NCBI GenBank assembly: GCA_025055455.1
Contig: JANWXD010000003.1
Coordinates: 124,001 to 188,000 of the forward strand
Length of the DNA: 64,000 nt
Direction of reading: 5' to 3'
From: Bryobacteraceae bacterium
Lineage (GTDB): Bacteria; Acidobacteriota; Terriglobia; Bryobacterales; Bryobacteraceae
In this document: piece after piece, positions 9,701 to 19,390 of the stretch
How the letters are laid out: the number at the start of each line of letters is the position of its first letter
Numbering within the stretch: the first letter of the stretch is position 1
Position numbers and translations under genes: made by a program
The notes under the pieces: generated by a model
What the model was told of the DNA's origin: nothing
Seen by the model: only the letters and a program-made list of their open reading frames with translations
Database searches by the model: none

Positions 9701-10957
9701 TTAGGGGCACTCCCCGCGGACCAGATCCGGGTACGTCTCCCGGGCACGGATGATGCGCCACTGGCTCCCGTCGACCAGGATCTCCGGCGGCCGCGGCCGC
9801 GAGTTGTAGTTCGAGGCCAGCACGAAGCCGTAGGCGCCCGCGGTCCACACGGCCAGCAGATCCCCCGGAAGCACATCGTCCAATTCCCGGTCCAGTGCCA
9901 GAAAGTCGCCCGACTCGCAGACCGGCCCGACCACGTCGGCGCGGATGCGTCCCCGAGCGGCGCGGCGCACCGGCAGAATCTCGTGATGCGACCGATACAA
10001 CGAGGGCCGCAGCAGGTCGTTCATAGCCGCGTCTACCACCACGAACTCCCGCGACTGGGTGCGCTTCCGGTACAGAACCCGCGTCAACAATACTCCCGCT
10101 TCCCCCACGATGGAGCGGCCGGGCTCCAGCAGAACCAGCAGACCCTGCCCTTCCATGCGGCGGCGGATTTCGGCGGCGAATTGGCGGATGTCGGGCGCTC
10201 GGTCTTCGGGGCGGTAGCGGACGCCCAGCCCGCCGCCCAGGTCCAGGTGCCGGATGGGAATGCCTTTCTTTCGGAGGCGGTGGGCCAGTTCCAGCATCCG
10301 GTCCGCGGCCTCGAGCAAGGGAGTGGGCTCGAGAATCTGCGAGCCGATGTGACAGCCCACCCCTTCGGTCGCCAGGTGACGGAACGCTTGAGCACGCTCG
10401 TAGACGCCTTCGACTTCCGTGATATCGATGCCGAACTTGTGCTCGCGCAAGCCGGTCGAGATATAGGGGTGCGCTCCCGCGTCAACGTTTGGATTGACAC
10501 GGAGCGAAACGCAGGCCTTCACGCCCCGGCGGGCGGCCAAGTCGTCGACGAGGGCCAGCTCCGCCTCCGACTCGCAGTTGAAGGCAAAGATCCCGGCGTC
10601 GAGCGCGTACTCGACCTCCTCGGCCGTCTTACCCACCCCCGAGAAAACCACCCCGGAGGGATCGCCCCCCGCCTTGAGCACCCGGAACAGTTCCCCACCC
10701 GAGACGATGTCGAAACCCGCGCCGGCGCGCGCCAGCAGCGACAGAACATGGACGTTCGAATTGGCCTTGACCGAGTAACAGATCCGGTGAGGCAGGTCTC
10801 CCAGCCCCTCGTCATAGTCCCGAAAGCGCTCGAGGATCGCCCGTCGGGAGTAGACATAACAGGGCGTGCCCGCACGGGCGGCGATGTCGGCCACGGCCGT
10901 CTCTTCGCAGAACAGAGCGCCGTCACGATAGTGGAAGACTCCGGAGGGTTCCAGCAT
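9701..10957 (-). CDS. lysA: Diaminopimelate decarboxylase
   Basis: A 418-residue PLP enzyme of fold type III that decarboxylates meso-diaminopimelate to lysine. The start at 10957 gives the usual N-terminus MLEPSGVFHYRDG. The PLP lysine is in ICYSVKANSNVHVL (about residue 60). The phosphate-binding HLDLGGGLGVRY, the EPGRSIVGEAG stretch, and the C-terminal GPVCESGDFLA and GAYGFVLASNYNSRPRPPEIL are all present. It overlaps the phosphatase gene upstream by one nucleotide (TGATG), so the two are probably coupled. I see no lysine riboswitch before it, as expected for an internal operon gene. Confidence 0.95.
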   Translation of the reverse strand: MLEPSGVFHYRDGALFCEETAVADIAARAGTPCYVYSRRAILERFRDYDEGLGDLPHRICYSVKANSNVHVLSLLARAGAGFDIVSGGELFRVLKAGGDPSGVVFSGVGKTAEEVEYALDAGIFAFNCESEAELALVDDLAARRGVKACVSLRVNPNVDAGAHPYISTGLREHKFGIDITEVEGVYERAQAFRHLATEGVGCHIGSQILEPTPLLEAADRMLELAHRLRKKGIPIRHLDLGGGLGVRYRPEDRAPDIRQFAAEIRRRMEGQGLLVLLEPGRSIVGEAGVLLTRVLYRKRTQSREFVVVDAAMNDLLRPSLYRSHHEILPVRRAARGRIRADVVGPVCESGDFLALDRELDDVLPGDLLAVWTAGAYGFVLASNYNSRPRPPEILVDGSQWRIIRARETYPDLVRGECP

Positions 10958-12708
10958 CAAGCCACCTTGAGGACCAGCAGCGTCTGATCGTCGGAGATTT
11001 GGTTTCCCCCGGCGAACGCGTCCAAGCTGGCAAAAACCGCTTCCACCACCCGGGCCGGCGGCTCGTGCCAGTTCTGCTGCAGCACTTCGAGGAAACGCCG
11101 CTTGCCGTATTCCTCCCCGGCGGGGTTCTGCTGGTCCAGAACGCCGTCCGAGTAAATCACCACCAGATCGCCAGGCTGGCTGCAAATCGCGATTTCTTCG
11201 TACTCCTGGCCTTCCAGAAGCCCCAGCGGGATGCCCTCGGCCCGAGGCTTCAGAATCTCGCCCTCGCGGCAAATCAGCGGGGGGAAGCTGCCGGCGTTGG
11301 CCATCGTCAGCTCGCGGCGCGAAGGCTCCCACAGCAGCACCAGCAGGGTGACGTAACGGGCGTCCACGCGCCGTTCGATCAGCGCCTGATTGAGGGCTTG
11401 CATCAGGCGGGCCGGCCGGCAAGTCTGTTGCGCTAGGGTTCGCAGCAGCCCGCTGACCAGGGCGCCGTAGAGCGCCGCTGGCGCGCCCTTGCCGCTGACG
11501 TCGCCAGCGGCCACCAGCACGTGTTCGTGGTCGTGGACGAAGAAGTCGTACAGATCCCCGCTGATCTGACGCGCCGGTCGCAAGCCGACGGCCGTTTCCA
11601 GACCCGGGATGTGCGGCGCCTCCTTGGGCAGCAGCACGAGCTGGAGCTCGCGCGCAGCGGCCAGGTCCTGCTCCATACGGCGTTCGCGCTCGGCCAGCTC
11701 TTCGTACAGGCGCGCGTTTTCCACCGAATTGGCCACCTGCGGCGCCAGGAGCGACAGGGTGCGGACGTGATCCTCGGTGAAAAAGCCGATGCGCTCGCTT
11801 TCCAGGTCCATCACGCCGATCACCCGGTCCCGGGCGATCAACGGCACGGCGACCTCCGAGCGGATGTCCGGGTGCGAAGGGATGTAGCGCGGGTCGGCGA
11901 GCGTGTCGTCCACCTTGATGACCTGCCGCGTCGCCACGGCCGCTCCCGTGATTCCTTTGCCCAGGGGGATGTTGTCCAGGCGCGCCCGCTCGTCGTAGCG
12001 GTAGCTGAAGCGGTGCCGCAGCAGCCCCTGCTGCTCGTCCACGAGCAGCACGCTGAAGGAATCATATGGAATCAGCAAGCGCACCGCGTCGGCGATGCGG
12101 CCCAGCAACTCGTCCAAGCTCAGGGTGGAGGAGAACTCCTGCGACAATCGCGCCAGCGTGCGCAGAGTGCGGTTCTGCCGCTCCACGCGCCGGTACAGCC
12201 GGGCGTTGTCGATAGCCGCGGCCACGCGCGAGGCGATCAGGCGCAGCATGGAGCGCTCGTACTCGCCGTAAGCGTTCAGACGGGTCGACTGGATGTCGAT
12301 GACGCCCACCAGCTTGTTGCGAGTCACCATGGGCACGGCCAGCTCCGACCGCACGGCGTCCACCGCATTCAGGTAGCGAGGATCCTTGCGCACGTCCCCC
12401 ACCAACACCGGCTGGCGCAGGGCGGCCGCCGCGCCGGTGAGGCCTTCCCCGAGGGGGATTCGCAAATTCCGCACGACCTCGTCTCGGTGACCGATGGCGT
12501 AGCGGATCCGCAAGTCGTTGCTCTTTTCGCTGTAGAGCAAGATCGCGAACAGTTCGTAGGGGATCACTTTGCGCACGATGCTGGCCACGTTGGCCAGCAG
12601 CCGATCCAGATCCAGCGTCTCGGAGGTGACGTCGGCCACCTCGAGCAGAAAGTCCAGCAGTTCGGAGCGTTGCCGGAAGCGAACCACGGCCTGGACGGAG
12701 TCCGTCAT
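10957..12708 (-). CDS. GAF-GAF-SpoIIE PP2C-type serine phosphatase
   Basis: A 583-residue cytoplasmic regulator. Two GAF domains lie at about 15-165 and 185-340; they are clear duplicates (VRKVIPYELFAILLYSE against VRLLIPYDSFSVLLVDE, and IPLGEGLTGAAA against IPLGKGITGAAV). A short helix (RERRMEQDLAAARELQLVLLP) links to the SpoIIE/PP2C phosphatase domain at about 375-583, where ISGDLYDFF, VAAGDVSGKGAPAAL and VIYSDGVLDQQN supply the metal-binding Asp and Gly residues. Such proteins dephosphorylate anti-sigma-factor antagonists in partner-switching cascades. No anti-anti-sigma gene is nearby. Its overlap with lysA and its spacing of 10 nt from deoC suggest one transcript. Confidence 0.92.
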   Translation of the reverse strand: MTDSVQAVVRFRQRSELLDFLLEVADVTSETLDLDRLLANVASIVRKVIPYELFAILLYSEKSNDLRIRYAIGHRDEVVRNLRIPLGEGLTGAAAALRQPVLVGDVRKDPRYLNAVDAVRSELAVPMVTRNKLVGVIDIQSTRLNAYGEYERSMLRLIASRVAAAIDNARLYRRVERQNRTLRTLARLSQEFSSTLSLDELLGRIADAVRLLIPYDSFSVLLVDEQQGLLRHRFSYRYDERARLDNIPLGKGITGAAVATRQVIKVDDTLADPRYIPSHPDIRSEVAVPLIARDRVIGVMDLESERIGFFTEDHVRTLSLLAPQVANSVENARLYEELAERERRMEQDLAAARELQLVLLPKEAPHIPGLETAVGLRPARQISGDLYDFFVHDHEHVLVAAGDVSGKGAPAALYGALVSGLLRTLAQQTCRPARLMQALNQALIERRVDARYVTLLVLLWEPSRRELTMANAGSFPPLICREGEILKPRAEGIPLGLLEGQEYEEIAICSQPGDLVVIYSDGVLDQQNPAGEEYGKRRFLEVLQQNWHEPPARVVEAVFASLDAFAGGNQISDDQTLLVLKVA

Positions 12709-12718
12709 GCGCGACCGA

Positions 12719-13588
12719 TCAAGCGGCGGCCTCGACGATCCGTACGCTGGCGCTGGCGCCGATCCGCGTGGCGCCTGCTGCCACCATGCGGCGCAAGTCC
12801 TCCAAAGTCCGGATGCCGCCGGCGGCTTTGACGCCGACCTCCGGCCCCACGACTTGGCGCATCAGCGCCACGTCCTGGACCGTGGCCCCTCCAGGGCCGA
12901 AACCGGTGGAGGTCTTGACGAAATCGGCGCCCGCTAGGCGCGCGAGCACGCAGGCGATCACCTTCTGGCGGTCATCGAGTAAAGCAGTCTCCAGAATCAC
13001 TTTCACGAGTGCTCCAGCGCGGTGGCAGATCTCGACCACCGACTGAATGTCGGTTTTGACCGCGTCGTAGTCTCCCGAGCGGAGTGCGCCGATGTTGATC
13101 ACCATGTCCACTTCCGTCGCGCCGGTGCGAACCGCCGCTTCCGCCTCGGCGCGCTTGATCTCGGTCATGGCCGCCCCCAGGGGAAAGCCCGCCACGGTGC
13201 AGACCTTGACCGACGTGCCTCGGAGCGCCTCCGCCGCCAGTGGCACCCAATAGGGGTTCACGCACACGCTGGCGAAGCCGTACTGGCGGGCTTCGGCGCA
13301 CAGGCGCAGGATGTCGCTCCGCGTGGCCTCCGGACGCAGCAGCGTGTGGTCGATCAAGGCGGCGATGGAGGGCTGGGCGCGGGCCACTGCCGGGCAACAG
13401 GAAACGCGCCCGGCGCCCGCGGCCACCACGCGACAGACCTTGTCGGCGCAGACGGCGGCGTCTCCTTCACCGCACTGCTGGCAGCAGGCGCCCGAGTCGG
13501 CTGCGGCCACGGCGGGCGCCTTGCCCAGCCGGGCAAGAATCTCCTCGCCGATGGCGGCTACGAGTCGCTGGAGTTCGGGCTCTTCCAA
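12719..13588 (-). CDS. deoC: Deoxyribose-phosphate aldolase with N-terminal helix and Cys-rich extension
   Basis: About 289 residues, roughly 60 longer than common DeoC. The class I aldolase core starts at [19 protein letters not shown]; the Schiff-base lysine region is [16 protein letters not shown], the second lysine is in [11 protein letters not shown], and [11 protein letters not shown] supplies a core Asp. Ahead of the core come a predicted amphipathic helix ([18 protein letters not shown]), a short linker ([12 protein letters not shown]) and a segment with seven cysteines (ACCQQC, VCADKVC, VSCCP). A helix plus linker is the form of an encapsulation peptide for bacterial microcompartment cargo. 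The start is a likely TTG at 13588 overlapping the rpiB end by 31 nt; it is uncertain, as the ribosome site is weak. Confidence 0.85.
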
Positions 13589-14196
13589 GTTCGATACCGC
13601 TCGTCGAGTTCGGCAATTTTCTGAACCCGGGCGGTGTGACGGCCGCCGGCGAACGGTGTGGCCAGCCAAGTCCGGAGCACTTCTTCCGCCTGACTCACGG
13701 TGAGGCAGCAGCCTCCCAGCGTCAGCACATTGGCGTCGTTGTGCTCCCGGCTGCTGCGGGCTGAAGCCTTATCATAGCACGGCGCCGCGCGGATGCCCGG
13801 AACCTTGTTCGCCGCGATGGCGGAACCGGTGCCCGCTCCGTCTACGATAATGCCTCGGGCCGCGCGGCCGGCCGCCACGAGCTCCGCCACCCGCGCGGCA
13901 ATCTCCGGATAATCCGCCGGCGACTCGTCATAGACCCCCACATCCCGAACCACGTAGCCGCAGTCTTCAACCACCGGTTTCAACGCTTCTTTGAGGCGGA
14001 AACCGGCGTGATCGGCGCCCAGGATGACCGTTCGTTCCGGGGGAGCGAGGCCGGAGAGTTCGTGCGGGTCGACCTCGACGATCGCTACCCCGCGCTGTTG
14101 CGCTAACTCGCGCGCCGCCGGAGTGACGATCGTCCCCGTGGCGATGCGTAGCTCACCGGACGGCGGCACGTCGCGGCTGGTCACCACGGGCGGCAT
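13558..14196 (-). CDS. rpiB: RpiB/LacAB-type sugar-phosphate isomerase, microcompartment-type variant
   Basis: A 212-residue isomerase; standard RpiB has about 150 residues. The core begins at [17 protein letters not shown] (about 53-69) and includes [26 protein letters not shown] and [14 protein letters not shown]. The usual catalytic Cys of the CGTG loop is Asp here ([16 protein letters not shown], about 117-132), as I recall for LacA and microcompartment-linked members. The first 50 residues contain [23 protein letters not shown], a segment resembling ones seen at the ends of microcompartment enzymes. The gene is followed directly by deoC. The substrate may be a sugar phosphate other than ribose 5-phosphate. 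Confidence 0.88.
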
Positions 14197-14969: not shown

Positions 14970-16355
14970 ATGTTAGATGCCTTGGCGCGGCTAGCCGCCG
15001 GCCTGCGGAGGAGCGCCTTCCGGCCGGCCTCCCAGTTACGCGAGGTTACCCCGCGCACCATCCTGCGCGTGCTGCTGGCGGGGTTCACGCTGGTGATCCT
15101 GTTGCTGCTCGTCGCGGGCTACTTCTCCGTGCGGAGCATCCGTTCTATCCGCGAAAACGCCGCCACGGTGGTGAACGAGCAGGCGGAGACCAGCCGGCTG
15201 ATCGAGGAGGTGCGCCGCGGGCAACTCGCCTTGAACGCCGTGCTGTACAACTTAGCGCGCGGCCCGGAATCGGTGGACCGGGACGAGATCCTCTCGCAGC
15301 TCAAAGCGACCTCGAACAATGTACAGCAGATTCTCGAAGAAACGAAGGGCACGCTGGAAGAGAAGCTCGGCCAGGAGCTGCGTCAGGCCACCGAAGCCTT
15401 CACCGCCGAAGCGACGCGCTTGCTGGCCCAGGAGGCTCCTACCACCCTGCTCTCGCGGGACTTGATCCGAAGGCACCAGCAGGTGCTTCAAATCGTAACC
15501 CGCCTGATGGCGTCGAGTCACGACAAAGCGCAAACGGCTCAGCAGATGATCGATCAGCAGTCCCGGCAACTTTTTGCCCGTTCCTTTACGCTGCTAGGCG
15601 CCTGCCTGGCCCTGGCGGCGATTTTTGCCCTGGCGACGGTCCGCCTGGCCTCGGACCTGTTGCGCAAGATGGAGTGGCAGGCCAGCGAACTGAGTCGCGT
15701 GTCCTGGCATCTGATGCAGCATCAGGAGACCACGGCGCGGCGCTTCTCGCATGAGTTGCACGATGAGCTCGGCCAGGCGCTGACCGCGGTCAAGGCGAAC
15801 TTGGTTCCCCTGGCGGCACAGGGCGCCGGTTCGCCGGCGGTGGAGGATTGTATCCGTCTGGTGGACGAAGCGCTCCGCAACGTGCGGGAGCTGTCCCATC
15901 TTCTGCGTCCCATCATTCTGGACGATTTCGGTCTGGATGCCGGTCTGCGGTGGCTTGCCGAGCGCTTCGCCCAGCGCACGGGCATCGAGGTCGAATATTC
16001 TTCGACGTTTGCCGAGAGGCTCGCCGACGAGACCGAGACGCACCTATTCCGCATTGCCCAGGAGGCTTTGACCAACGTGGCGCGCCACGCCGGAGCCACG
16101 AAGGTCAAAATGGAACTTGCGGCCCAGGGGGGCGAGCTGCGCCTAACGATCCGCGACAACGGCCGCGGCCTGCCCGAGACGACGGCGGCGGAGGCCGGCA
16201 TGGGCATGACCGGCATGCGGGCGCGGGCGCGCAGCGCCGGCGGGGAACTGCGCGTCCTTTCCGCCCCAGGAGCGGGGGTGCAGATCGAGGCTCGCGTGCC
16301 GCTGAAGGCTGTTCGTCATGAGCAACCGGAAGATTCGCATCTTGCTCGCCGATGA
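14970..16355 (+). CDS. NarL-type sensor histidine kinase (HisKA_3)
   Basis: A 461-residue inner-membrane kinase. TM1 is at about residues 31-52 (TILRVLLAGFTLVILLLLVAGY), a largely helical periplasmic domain at about 53-205, and TM2 at about 207-228 (FTLLGACLALAAIFALATV). The dimerisation/phosphoacceptor motif is RRFSHELHDELGQALTAVK with His near 260. The HATPase domain has ALTNVARHAGA (N box), RDNGRGLP (G1) and GMGMTGMRARARSAGGEL (G2). The periplasmic part has a four-helix-bundle look, as in methyl-accepting sensors, but the ligand is unknown. It overlaps the response regulator gene by 38 nt. Confidence 0.93.
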   Translation: MLDALARLAAGLRRSAFRPASQLREVTPRTILRVLLAGFTLVILLLLVAGYFSVRSIRSIRENAATVVNEQAETSRLIEEVRRGQLALNAVLYNLARGPESVDRDEILSQLKATSNNVQQILEETKGTLEEKLGQELRQATEAFTAEATRLLAQEAPTTLLSRDLIRRHQQVLQIVTRLMASSHDKAQTAQQMIDQQSRQLFARSFTLLGACLALAAIFALATVRLASDLLRKMEWQASELSRVSWHLMQHQETTARRFSHELHDELGQALTAVKANLVPLAAQGAGSPAVEDCIRLVDEALRNVRELSHLLRPIILDDFGLDAGLRWLAERFAQRTGIEVEYSSTFAERLADETETHLFRIAQEALTNVARHAGATKVKMELAAQGGELRLTIRDNGRGLPETTAAEAGMGMTGMRARARSAGGELRVLSAPGAGVQIEARVPLKAVRHEQPEDSHLARR

Positions 16356-16959
16356 CCACGCCTTGGTGCGGCAAGGTTTCCGGCTGATGCTGGAGACGCA
16401 GCCGGATATGGAGGTGGTAGGCGAGGCCTCCAACGGCCGCGAGGCGCTCGAGCTGGCGCAGAACTTGCATCCGGACGTAGTGATCATGGACGTGGGCATG
16501 CCGGAAATGGGCGGCATCGAAGCCACCCGCCGCCTGGCGGCCGCGTTGCCGCGGACAGCCGTGCTGGCCTTGAGTATGCACAAGGATTCGGTCTATGTGC
16601 GCGAGATTCTGCGAGTGGGCGCCCGCGGCTATCTGCTCAAGGATGCCTTCGACCGCGACCTGCTCACGGCCGTACGCGCCGTGGCCCGGGGAGAGGGATA
16701 CTTGAGCCCCGCCGTCTCCGAGGCCGTCCTCAGCGACTATCGCCGGAGCGTCTCCGATCCCCTGGACCTGCTCACCAGCCGCGAGCGCGAGGTCTTGCAG
16801 CTCCTGGCGGAGGGCAAGACGAACAAAGAGATCGCGACGCTGCTCAACCTGAGTGTGTATACCGTGGACGCACACCGGGGCCGCCTCATGGAAAAGCTCA
16901 ATCTGCACAGCATCGGCGAGATCGTGCGCTTCGCGCTGCGCCACGGACTGATCGACTGA
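16318..16959 (+). CDS. NarL/FixJ-family response regulator
   Basis: A 213-residue partner of the kinase just upstream, with which it overlaps by 38 nt. The receiver domain (1-125) has the acidic pair in LLADDHALVRQGF, the phosphoacceptor Asp in VVIMDVGMPEMGG (about 58), the Thr/Ser switch position in LALSMHKD and the Lys in YLLKDAF. The C-terminal LuxR-type HTH is LTSREREVLQLLAEGKTNKEI followed by LSVYTVDAHRG (about 150-190). It should bind promoter DNA when phosphorylated. No target gene is evident; the closest downstream genes are on the opposite strand. Confidence 0.95.
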   Translation: MSNRKIRILLADDHALVRQGFRLMLETQPDMEVVGEASNGREALELAQNLHPDVVIMDVGMPEMGGIEATRRLAAALPRTAVLALSMHKDSVYVREILRVGARGYLLKDAFDRDLLTAVRAVARGEGYLSPAVSEAVLSDYRRSVSDPLDLLTSREREVLQLLAEGKTNKEIATLLNLSVYTVDAHRGRLMEKLNLHSIGEIVRFALRHGLID

Positions 16960-16964
16960 AGCCT

Positions 16965-17888
16965 TCAGCGCGCCAGCTTCCGCTTGCGGAGTTCATCCAC
17001 CGTCACGGCCAGGATGATCACGGCGCCGATGATGGCCTGCTGCAAGTAGGGCGAAATCCCCAGCAGGTCGCTGCCGTTGGACAGCAGGCCCATGATGAAG
17101 GCGCCGATCAGCGTCCCGATAACGCTGCCTTCGCCGCCGCGCAGGCTCCCGCCGCCGATGACCACCGCGGCGATGACCTGAAGTTCGTAGCCCTGCCCGG
17201 CGGTGGGCTGGCCCGTCATCAGCCGGGAGGCTTCGATCATTCCCGCCAGACCCGTGAGCAGTCCGCACAGGGCGTAGACGGCGGTCGTGTGGAAGGCCAC
17301 CGGAACGCCCGCATACAGCGCCGCCTCCGGATTGCTTCCTATGGCGAAGGCGTAGCGCCCCAGGCGCGTGTGCTCCAGCAAGAAGTGAACGGCGGCGGCG
17401 CAAAACACCAGAATCCACAGCACGAAGGGAACGCCGAGCAGATTGCCTTCGCCCAGGTAGGAAAACTTTTGGGGGATCCGGTGCACCGGCAAGCCATCGG
17501 AGATGATGAGGGTCAAGCCGCGGACGATGCCGAGCGTGCCGAGCGTGACGATAAACGGCGCGATTTTCAGGCGCGTGATCAGCAGCCCGTTCACGAAGCC
17601 CCAAAACAGACCCGTCAGCACGCCGATCAGCACTCCGACGGGAATCGGATAGCCCTGTTCCATGGCCATGGTGCCGAGCAGGCCGGCCATGGCCAGAATA
17701 GCGCCGACCGACAGATCGATACCCCCCGCGATGATCACCATCGTCATGCCGAGCGCCATGATGTTGATCACCGCGGTCTGGCGCACGACGCTGGACAGGT
17801 TGGTCTGGGTGAGGAAGTAAGGGGAGGCAAGAGAGAGGGCGACGAAAAGAATCACCAGGCTCAGGGAGGGCAGCAGGCGCTGGATCAT
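16965..17888 (-). CDS. Sugar ABC transporter permease (RbsC-like)
   Basis: A 307-residue polytopic inner-membrane protein of the BPD_transp_2 family. The start at 17888 overlaps the stop of the ATPase gene by 4 nt (ATGA) and gives an N-terminal TM (LPSLSLVILFVALSLASPYF). Family segments are present: NIMALGMTMVIIAGGIDLSVG, the coupling-helix region GRYAFAIGSNPEAALYAGV and AAVVIGGGSLRGGEGSVIGT. About eight to ten TM helices are expected. Together with the preceding ATPase it forms the core of a CUT2 importer for a pentose, hexose or autoinducer-type ligand. Confidence 0.92.
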   Translation of the reverse strand: MIQRLLPSLSLVILFVALSLASPYFLTQTNLSSVVRQTAVINIMALGMTMVIIAGGIDLSVGAILAMAGLLGTMAMEQGYPIPVGVLIGVLTGLFWGFVNGLLITRLKIAPFIVTLGTLGIVRGLTLIISDGLPVHRIPQKFSYLGEGNLLGVPFVLWILVFCAAAVHFLLEHTRLGRYAFAIGSNPEAALYAGVPVAFHTTAVYALCGLLTGLAGMIEASRLMTGQPTAGQGYELQVIAAVVIGGGSLRGGEGSVIGTLIGAFIMGLLSNGSDLLGISPYLQQAIIGAVIILAVTVDELRKRKLAR

Positions 17889-19390
17889 GAGCCCAGCTCC
17901 CTCACGCCCGCCTCCCGTTCGAGCATGGCGTGGCGCATCACCTCTTCCTGCGTGGCGCCACGGGGGAGCTCCACCACGAGACGGCCCTGACGCATGACCA
18001 GGATCCGGTCGGCGACCTGGAGTAGCTCCGGCAACTCGGAGCTGACCATGAGGATGGCAGCGCCGGAGCGGGCCAGTTCGTCCATGATGTGAAACACTTC
18101 CGCTTTGGCCGCCACGTCGATGCCTCGGGTCGGCTCGTCGAACAGAAACACGCGGGCTTGCGAGAACAGCCACTTGCCCACGACGACCTTCTGCTGGTTG
18201 CCGCCGCTGAGTTTGCCGGCAAGCTGGCGCCAGGATTCCGCCCGGATGCGCAGCCGCTCGATGAACTCCGTCGCCGTGCGCCGCTCGGCGGCGTGGTCGA
18301 TGATGCCGTGAGGGCTCACGGCCTTCAGCCGTGCGTGGGTCAAGTTGTGACCGATCGGCAGCAACACGGCCAGGCCATTCCGCTGGCGGTCCTCGGGGAT
18401 GAGTGCCAAGCCCGCCGCCACCGCCTGGCGGGGATTCCGGATGTGCACTTCTTTGCCCGCCACGAACACCCGGCCGCCGTCCACCGGGTCGAGGCCGAAC
18501 AACGCCCGGCAAAGCTCCGTGCGGCCGGCGCCGACCAAACCGGCCAGCCCGACAATTTCCCGAGCACGCAGGGTGAAGCGAATGTCGTGGAGCACGCCGC
18601 GGCGGCTGAGCCCTTCCACGCGCAGGAGCTCCTCGCCGGGAGGCAAACACTCGCGATGGTAGATGGCCTCCAGCTCACGCCCCACCATGTGGCGGATGAT
18701 CTCTTCGGTGGAGAGCCCGGCCAACGGGCCGCTGTGCACGGTTTCGCCGTCCCGCAGAATCGTGACCCGGTCGCCGACCGCACGCAGCTCCTCCAGCCGG
18801 TGCGTGATGTAGATCACCCCCATGTGGCGTTCGCGCAGCGTGCGCACGATGCGAAAGACTTCCTGGGTTTCCGCCTCCGACAACGAGGAGGTGGGCTCGT
18901 CGAAGATCAGCAGGCTCGAGCCGTGGTAGATCGCCCGGCAGATCTCCACGAGCTGTTTGCCGGCCGGACTGAGCCGTTCGACCCGCCAGTCCGCTTGCAA
19001 CGGAAAGTGGTGCTCTTCGATGAGGCGCGCCGCCCGCTCCATCATCCGTCGGCGGTTGACCCATCCGAACGGCAGGCGGTCCTCCCGGCCGAGGAAGATG
19101 TTTTCCGCCACGGTCAAGTGCGGGGCGAGCAGCGATTCCTGGTGCACCATGGCGATGCCATGGGCCGCCGCCTCCGCGGGAGCGCGAAAGCTCACCGGCT
19201 GGCCCCGCCAGCGGATCACGCCGCCGTCCGGCTGGACCATCCCCGCCACGATCTTCATCAGGGTGGACTTACCGGCGCCGTTTTCCCCGAGCAGCAAGTG
19301 CACCTCGCCGGCCTCGGCGCGCAGATCGCCGCGACGTAAAGCCACAACGCCGCCGAAGCGTTTCTGGATGCCCTCCAGCTCGAGCAGCAC
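17885..19390 (-). CDS. Sugar ABC transporter ATP-binding protein (RbsA/MglA-like)
   Basis: A 501-residue protein with two ABC domains in tandem, as in CUT2 importers. The N-terminal half has Walker A GENGAGKST (about 36), a signature-like LSPAGKQLVEI and Walker B LLIFDEPTSSL. The C-terminal half has the usual degenerate P-loop GLVGAGRTEL, a canonical LSGGNQQKVVVGKWL and VFLFDEPTRGIDV. It is coupled to the permease by a 4-nt overlap. No periplasmic binding protein gene lies on either side (dnaB is 40 nt upstream), which is unusual, since CUT2 operons normally encode one. Confidence 0.93.
   Translation of the reverse strand: MLLELEGIQKRFGGVVALRRGDLRAEAGEVHLLLGENGAGKSTLMKIVAGMVQPDGGVIRWRGQPVSFRAPAEAAAHGIAMVHQESLLAPHLTVAENIFLGREDRLPFGWVNRRRMMERAARLIEEHHFPLQADWRVERLSPAGKQLVEICRAIYHGSSLLIFDEPTSSLSEAETQEVFRIVRTLRERHMGVIYITHRLEELRAVGDRVTILRDGETVHSGPLAGLSTEEIIRHMVGRELEAIYHRECLPPGEELLRVEGLSRRGVLHDIRFTLRAREIVGLAGLVGAGRTELCRALFGLDPVDGGRVFVAGKEVHIRNPRQAVAAGLALIPEDRQRNGLAVLLPIGHNLTHARLKAVSPHGIIDHAAERRTATEFIERLRIRAESWRQLAGKLSGGNQQKVVVGKWLFSQARVFLFDEPTRGIDVAAKAEVFHIMDELARSGAAILMVSSELPELLQVADRILVMRQGRLVVELPRGATQEEVMRHAMLEREAGVRELGS

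Follow-up and report, generated by a model that had tools for sequence, protein, structure and literature searches.

A deoC-rpiB pair of a Bryobacteraceae bacterium as a probable satellite cargo locus of a bacterial microcompartment encoded elsewhere in the genome

The rpiB-deoC pair of a Bryobacteraceae bacterium (assembly GCA_025055455.1) is very probably a cargo-only satellite locus of a metabolosome-type bacterial microcompartment (BMC), the shell and core genes of which are found at three separate sites elsewhere in the genome. We infer that both enzymes are encapsulated: DeoC would be loaded through an N-terminal encapsulation peptide (EP)-like helix on a flexible linker, and RpiB through a folded module of the EutQ H1/H2 type. 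The compartment is best read as a scattered metabolosome like the sugar-phosphate-utilising (SPU), ACI and HO types. Gene content, module homology, co-presence of tags and shell genes, synteny and predicted folds were all determined by computation.

The window, the whole stretch of 64,000 nucleotides that was analysed, corresponds to positions 124001-188000 of contig C79 (JANWXD010000003.1) of this genome (G000). The two genes proposed for the pair in the first-pass annotation are real, and both lie on the reverse strand. rpiB (13558-14196) encodes an RpiB/LacAB-type isomerase of 212 aa with an N-terminal module (PF02502, E=4.3e-48, residues 57-194), and deoC (12719-13588) encodes a deoxyribose-phosphate aldolase of 289 aa (TIGR00126, E=1.4e-84). 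The deoC start was set at TTG 13588 because in relatives deoC begins at the corresponding codon, beside the rpiB stop or overlapping it; this start is likelier than TTG 13669, from which the first 27 codons fall inside rpiB in a different frame. The adjacent gene (10957-12708, reverse strand) encodes a GAF-GAF-SpoIIE phosphatase of the PP2C type, assigned from Pfam and synteny as a neighbour and not cargo, and is retained next to deoC whether or not the genome has shell genes. Untagged second copies are present in the genome, one further DeoC on contig C11 and one further RpiB on C68, both without extension. Upstream of rpiB lie a histidine kinase/response regulator pair (14970-16959) and an ABC transporter (16965-19390; PF02653, PF00005); among the compared loci, many of them too short to show such genes, strong matches were obtained only in L012.

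A search of the full genome found PF00936 at four places and PF03319 at three, all above cut-off, on contigs C101, C57 and C11. The pair had been described as shell-less, which is correct for the window and for contig C79, where neither PF00936 nor PF03319 had a match, but not for the genome. C101 carries a class II aldolase (PF00596), a BMC-H and three BMC-P genes; the C-terminus of this aldolase is EP-like by eye, with a hydrophobic moment of only 0.24. C57 carries a BMC-H gene and an adjoining gene for a 617-aa aldehyde dehydrogenase (AldDH, PF00171), the best NCBIfam match of which is TIGR02518 (acetylating acetaldehyde dehydrogenase) at 531 bits, under the cut-off of 620. An RnfC/PduS-like protein and a tandem BMC-T are encoded on C11, the latter with a PduT-type model as its best NCBIfam match, under cut-off. 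PduL (PF06130), a core enzyme in the canonical model, had no match in the genome and, judging by the search, is missing or replaced here. The scatter of BMC genes is not merely a matter of contig breaks, since it recurs in a relative assembled as a single contig of 4.86 Mb (G049), where PF00936 is matched at 0.17, 1.12, 2.51 and 3.42 Mb and the cassette lies at 3.80 Mb, so that four or more shell loci are separated by hundreds of kb. There is a small chance that a shell contig is foreign to the genome, given the listed contamination of 3.5%; single-contig relatives have the same parts. The earlier suggestion that the pair serves a compartment encoded elsewhere thus agrees with the shell genes on three other contigs, and with extensions and shell genes being present or absent together, as described below.

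The isomerase core of RpiB spans residues 57-194, and the extension that had been reported stands ahead of it, at the N-terminus. The AlphaFold2 model of RpiB has a mean pLDDT of 89.4, with residues 1-40 at 88-96, and the extension is thus confidently folded. Its module, delimited with a profile (A2) and the pLDDT values, is a mini-domain of residues 1-42 (14071-14196, reverse strand) of the EutQ/EutT N-terminal type, with a putative role in shell docking. The closest PDB fold for the RpiB model is 3he8, and in all of the top 34 Foldseek rows the matched chain is of the RpiB/LacAB type, aligned over 127-158 columns; the query range is not given in these rows, which say nothing on the module.

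Profile A2, built from 19 RpiB modules only, matched E. coli EutT with E=1.5e-6 and E. coli EutQ with E=0.0045 (search size set to 5000), the relationship to the EutQ N-terminus being weaker than that to the EutT N-terminus. The RpiB module aligns with the H1/H2 region of EutQ. A passage of PMC12487888 reports that Salmonella EutQ interacts with the shell through residues 9-41 (H1/H2) and with the encapsulation peptides of cargo through H3/H4, and that deletion of either H1/H2 or H3/H4 separates shell from cargo. Shell docking is the most likely role of the RpiB module because the module aligns with this shell-interacting region, and by analogy with Salmonella EutQ (PMC12487888, in the same passage) the module would bind the shell. 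RpiB shares the module with EutQ and is not itself a EutQ: cupin PF06249 is absent and PF02502 is the only domain found, whereas EutQ is a cupin that also has the cargo-binding helices H3/H4. Here the first module stands alone, on an isomerase.

The N-terminus of RpiB varies between groups. An EP-like helix alone is found in four shell-linked loci, three of Anaerolineae and one of an Acidimicrobiia SPU (L024, L025, L044 and L046), a helix together with the module in nine Pyrinomonadaceae/Blastocatellia-type loci and one of Chloroflexi (L239), the module alone in Bryobacterales, and neither helix nor module in the two Bacillaceae examined. This distribution bears on the main rival to shell docking, a scaffold role, in which the module would make cargo-cargo or scaffold contacts, or form a small ligand- or redox-binding domain, and RpiB would owe its entry to DeoC or AldDH. 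Such a role is a tentative possibility, compatible with a satellite locus, and would suit a folded mini-domain unlike a classical encapsulation peptide; where RpiB carries both helix and module, the latter may act otherwise than by docking, and the module-bearing class II aldolases have, by eye, an EP-like C-terminus as well. It accords less well with EutQ, in which the counterpart of the module is the shell-interacting pair of helices and the cargo peptides are met by the other pair, and with the Bryobacterales RpiB, in which the module sits where the three Anaerolineae and one Acidimicrobiia SPU proteins have their EP-like helix.

The module occurs well beyond RpiB. Profile A2 was searched against 79 of 100 genomes of the order, comprising all 36 without PF00936 and 43 of the 64 with it. 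At E<=0.01 it matched 38 of the 43 shell-bearing genomes and 0 of the 36 others among the matches listed, the best scores in the latter falling just above the line (0.0103 in G032, then 0.046 in G045, again among the matches listed). Across the 79 genomes it also matched 33 frames of 587-662 aa at their ends, with E up to 0.054, and every one of these frames belongs to a shell-bearing genome (among the matches listed). These frames were found although none had contributed to the profile, and 31 of the 33 lie no more than 2.5 kb from a PF00936 place among the matches listed. Six are AldDH (in G000, G005, G008, G039, G049 and G090), and the BMC aldehyde dehydrogenase of the present genome accordingly carries the RpiB-type module in its tail. 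Four other carriers are class II aldolases in which the module is N-terminal (L129 4519-5640, L130 3902-5029, L131 3050-4216 and L132 7435-8562); these belong to another BMC cluster, and by eye they end in an EP-like stretch.

A wider module profile (A5), which includes rows from five of the genomes then searched, gave matches at E<=5e-5 in 20 of 27 further genomes with shell genes. At E<=0.01 it had no match (best 0.031) in 45 genome handles without shell matches, at least three of which look like duplicates. Besides more RpiB, the further carriers found with it were a PduL, a cupin of the EutQ type and a 238-aa protein. The PduL (L236 829-1626; PF06130, E=1e-70) has the module at its C-terminus, as does the 238-aa protein (L241 928-1641), which matched no Pfam or NCBIfam model and adjoins a module-bearing RpiB. 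A second copy of the module was observed in a 70-aa open frame upstream of rpiB in G097 (L133 5750-5959).

When bare module segments were compared with 18,950 NCBIfam models at E<=0.1, only microcompartment families were matched, far under their cut-offs: EutQ (0.015), TIGR02536 (8.5e-5) and PduM (0.079). Residues 6-92 of E. coli EutQ in addition matched a EutA model of NCBIfam (E=1.6e-9), a match to which no weight is given here. No Pfam model matched the module above cut-off in the proteins scanned. A PDB sequence search with the module profile returned 19 matches up to E=1, no BMC protein among them; the best (E=0.0019) consisted of repeated short matches in designed TIM barrels, and the set was discarded as chance. 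The first-pass annotation had seen the RpiB extension without recognising it as a module common to other BMC proteins. A literature search judged by titles and abstract starts, and therefore weak evidence of novelty, found no description of the module on RpiB, AldDH, aldolase or PduL.

The active site of these isomerases is also changed. Asp replaces the Cys of the C-G-x-G motif in 23 of 23 aligned BMC-type RpiB, that of the window included, and in four Bacillaceae SPU RpiB, a count that covers RpiB of BMC settings only. The Cys is kept in 3he8/3ph3 and in the RpiB copy on C68 (CGSG). The BMC-type motif reads DGAGxGS; the comparison concerns positions 13558-14196 of the window and L097 7666-8142. 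Since the residue replaced by Asp is the one we take to be the catalytic base, the reaction and substrate of BMC-type RpiB are unsure, and the change calls into question the reaction assigned to 'RpiB' in SPU compartments.

The chances seem evenly balanced for a broader proposal, in which a portable folded module of about 45 residues (ITxxDhR...g.h.h...hhTPxARDhA...) would be a second class of BMC targeting tag beside the encapsulation peptide. It would be carried N-terminally by RpiB, class II aldolases and EutQ/EutT, and C-terminally by BMC AldDH, PduL (one case) and perhaps PduM (weak matches). The tag would dock cargo on the shell, replace or add to an encapsulation peptide, and let cargo genes sit far from shell genes, in a compartment that would take acetaldehyde-yielding deoxysugar phosphates through two aldolases and an isomerase whose Cys-to-Asp change would suit it to a substrate different from ribose-5-phosphate. 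BMC cargo far from shell genes could then be found by tag instead of by neighbourhood, and the shell-binding H1/H2 module of EutQ can be tested as a general loading device on several enzyme families. That the loading module is general is a possibility, and it is the part worth following.

The DeoC extension is of the kind expected of encapsulation-peptide cargo, a terminal helix and a flexible linker being present in the predicted structure. AlphaFold2 places a helix at residues 3-22, with pLDDT 85 for residues 1-10 and 80 for 11-20, then a linker with pLDDT below 50 at residues 23-38 and 40-45, then the barrel. The EP-like helix is assigned to residues 1-22 (13523-13588, reverse strand) on this model and on a pattern common to DeoC of shell-linked loci; the mostly low-confidence linker comprises residues 23-72 (13373-13522, reverse strand). 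The seven cysteines noted previously ahead of the aldolase core were counted in the alignment and fall within this linker.

The helix had been called amphipathic; the helix itself is predicted, but its amphipathicity is weak and borderline. The hydrophobic moment of the single sequence (0.29) was equalled or exceeded in 38% of 5079 background windows, and as this is not significant it was rejected as proof of an encapsulation peptide. In the alignment, column permutation gave p=0.061 and 0.076 with the first choice of columns; with helix columns picked afterwards, p was 0.052 over 27 rows and 0.027 over 12 diverse rows. A pattern LxxLVxxI..xx[IV]LxxL recurs in DeoC helices, and alignment showed it to be common to this DeoC and those of loci with adjoining shell genes (L024, L025, L044, L046 and L062), which come from Anaerolineae, an Acidimicrobiia bin and Bacillaceae. 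The linker reads CX2CX3CX3C in 8 of 10 Bryobacterales-type rows of the alignment (A4); among other groups, several rows have four Cys and L062 has none. The Cys cluster may possibly bind a metal or an Fe-S centre.

To compare extensions with shell genes, 100 genomes of the order were sampled, with PF00936 matched in 64 and not in 36 (among the matches listed). DeoC was scored as extended when the match began at query residue 31 or before, and RpiB when it began at residue 10 or before. Extended DeoC was found in 34 of the 64 genomes with PF00936 and in 0 of the 36 without (among the matches listed; Fisher p=4.8e-9, not corrected for kinship). Extended RpiB was found in 35 of 64 and 0 of 36, with a fragment in addition in G043 (among the matches listed). 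All 36 genomes without PF00936 have a core DeoC, the best match of which starts at residue 65 or later (among the matches listed), and PF03319 was not found in any of them. The extensions are thus not common in DeoC and RpiB of genomes without shell genes, which would have told against a link to compartments. Among 46 genomes reached via related DeoC loci, 35 have PF00936; two have an extended DeoC without it (L020 and L024), and both of these have PF03319.

By the threshold, 30 of the 64 PF00936-bearing genomes lack an extended DeoC (among the matches listed), and DeoC was fetched for 16 of these. Eight of the 16 have by eye an EP-like DeoC start (G002, G010, G019, G021, G026, G063, G066 and G071), five have only a DeoC away from the phosphatase (G053, G056, G068, G078 and G090), and one has a DeoC fragment (G043). 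In the remaining two, G038 and G065, deoC carries no tag and the BMC cluster is of another kind, with a class II aldolase.

The locus itself is syntenic. In each of the 36 genomes that lack PF00936, a gap of 3-114 bp separates the end of the deoC match from the GAF-SpoIIE phosphatase match, and neither a tag nor rpiB was seen in the stretch fetched beside deoC, which in G062 includes only 290 bases upstream. In shell-bearing relatives with the cassette, a module-bearing rpiB precedes a tagged deoC at this phosphatase locus. Tag, rpiB and shell being present or absent together at one syntenic locus provides a natural experiment on BMC enzymes without the organelle.

A tree of the DeoC core and the phosphatase was built from 84 rows, 73 from the 100 order genomes (the 36 without PF00936 and 37 of the 64 with it) and 11 from further genomes; 27 PF00936-bearing order genomes are not in it, and G010, G019, G021, G026, G063, G066 and G071 were labelled as extended by eye. 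On the best tree the extension changed at least seven times, and four of these changes are forced by supported (starred) branches. When pairs were drawn at random on these branches, shell presence changed in the same direction as the extension in 3.7 of 4 of them and against it in 0; with four supported pairs the sign test, at a median p of 0.125, cannot reach significance. A tree of the DeoC core only, which left out G053, G056, G068, G078 and G090 (DeoC not beside the phosphatase), the G043 fragment and five suspected duplicate genomes, was poorly resolved, with one supported independent pair, and was replaced by the combined tree. Loss of extension and shell in the order genomes that have neither is suggested by the sister families (four rows), which have both, in a tree that is unrooted.

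That the pair is a relic, formerly cargo and now working in the cytosol, is very improbable in this genome, which retains shell, AldDH and PduS-like genes, and tags were seen only alongside shell genes in the genomes searched (among the matches listed). The earlier idea of cargo that left its compartment is therefore unsupported here, although a relic-like state may exist in the relative L021, where PF00936 and PF03319 had no match; its DeoC leader (L021 1-311) is tag-like by eye with prolines at helix positions, and looks like a decayed encapsulation peptide. It is scarcely credible that the extensions are ordinary lineage-specific tails with no tie to compartments, even though common descent gives kin genomes the same tails, there are few supported independent pairs and the moment of the single DeoC helix falls within background, since extensions occur in 0 of 36 genomes without PF00936 (among the matches listed), none of the four changes forced by supported branches goes against shell presence, and the bare module matches only microcompartment families in NCBIfam at E<=0.1.

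The satellite locus and its compartment resemble several known systems. Passages of PMC4207490 and PMC8217296 describe SPU loci with DeoC, RpiB, AldDH and shell proteins, proposed for DNA-derived deoxyribose, in agreement with the pairing of DeoC and RpiB-type isomerases that had been noted for sugar-phosphate-utilising loci. The present genome shares with them a PF01791 DeoC-type aldolase, a PF02502 RpiB-type isomerase and a BMC-type AldDH (PF00171, adjoining BMC-H on C57). It differs in that DeoC-RpiB lies apart from all shell genes (C79, against C101, C57 and C11), a class II aldolase accompanies the BMC-P triplet, and RpiB has a EutQ-type module, whereas four shell-linked SPU RpiB (L024, L025, L044 and L046) have an EP-like helix. 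A passage of PMC7736352 mentions an isolate of Atribacteria in which a BMC gene cluster includes an N-terminally extended deoxyribose-phosphate aldolase.

The ACI type of Acidobacteria is described in a passage of PMC8217296 as having a class II aldolase with a C-terminal EP, a BMC-P triplet and a satellite AldDH, and as placed mainly in Subdivisions 4 and 6. The PF00596 aldolase, BMC-H and BMC-P triplet on C101 and the AldDH on satellite C57 correspond to it. Here, however, the best-matching named relatives are Bryobacterales, a hydroxyacid dehydrogenase (PF00389/PF02826) is not among the four neighbouring ORFs scanned, and DeoC-RpiB is added. The HO (Haliangium) type likewise has the BMC-P triplet, and the passage of PMC8217296 notes that a PF01791 enzyme is encoded elsewhere in some genomes of this type and in part of them has an EP-like extension at its N-terminus; that passage mentions no RpiB and no EutQ-like module. 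The present gene set combines SPU, ACI and HO features, and the pathway and electron route of the compartment are putative. A class II aldolase could also yield acetaldehyde from 5-deoxyribulose-1-phosphate.

One further feature of the aldolase concerns its other end. The C-terminal Tyr, which presumably has a catalytic role as in E. coli DeoC, is absent from the DeoC of the window and from nine Bryobacterales-type rows of alignment A4, and is the terminal residue in 16 of the 17 other rows.
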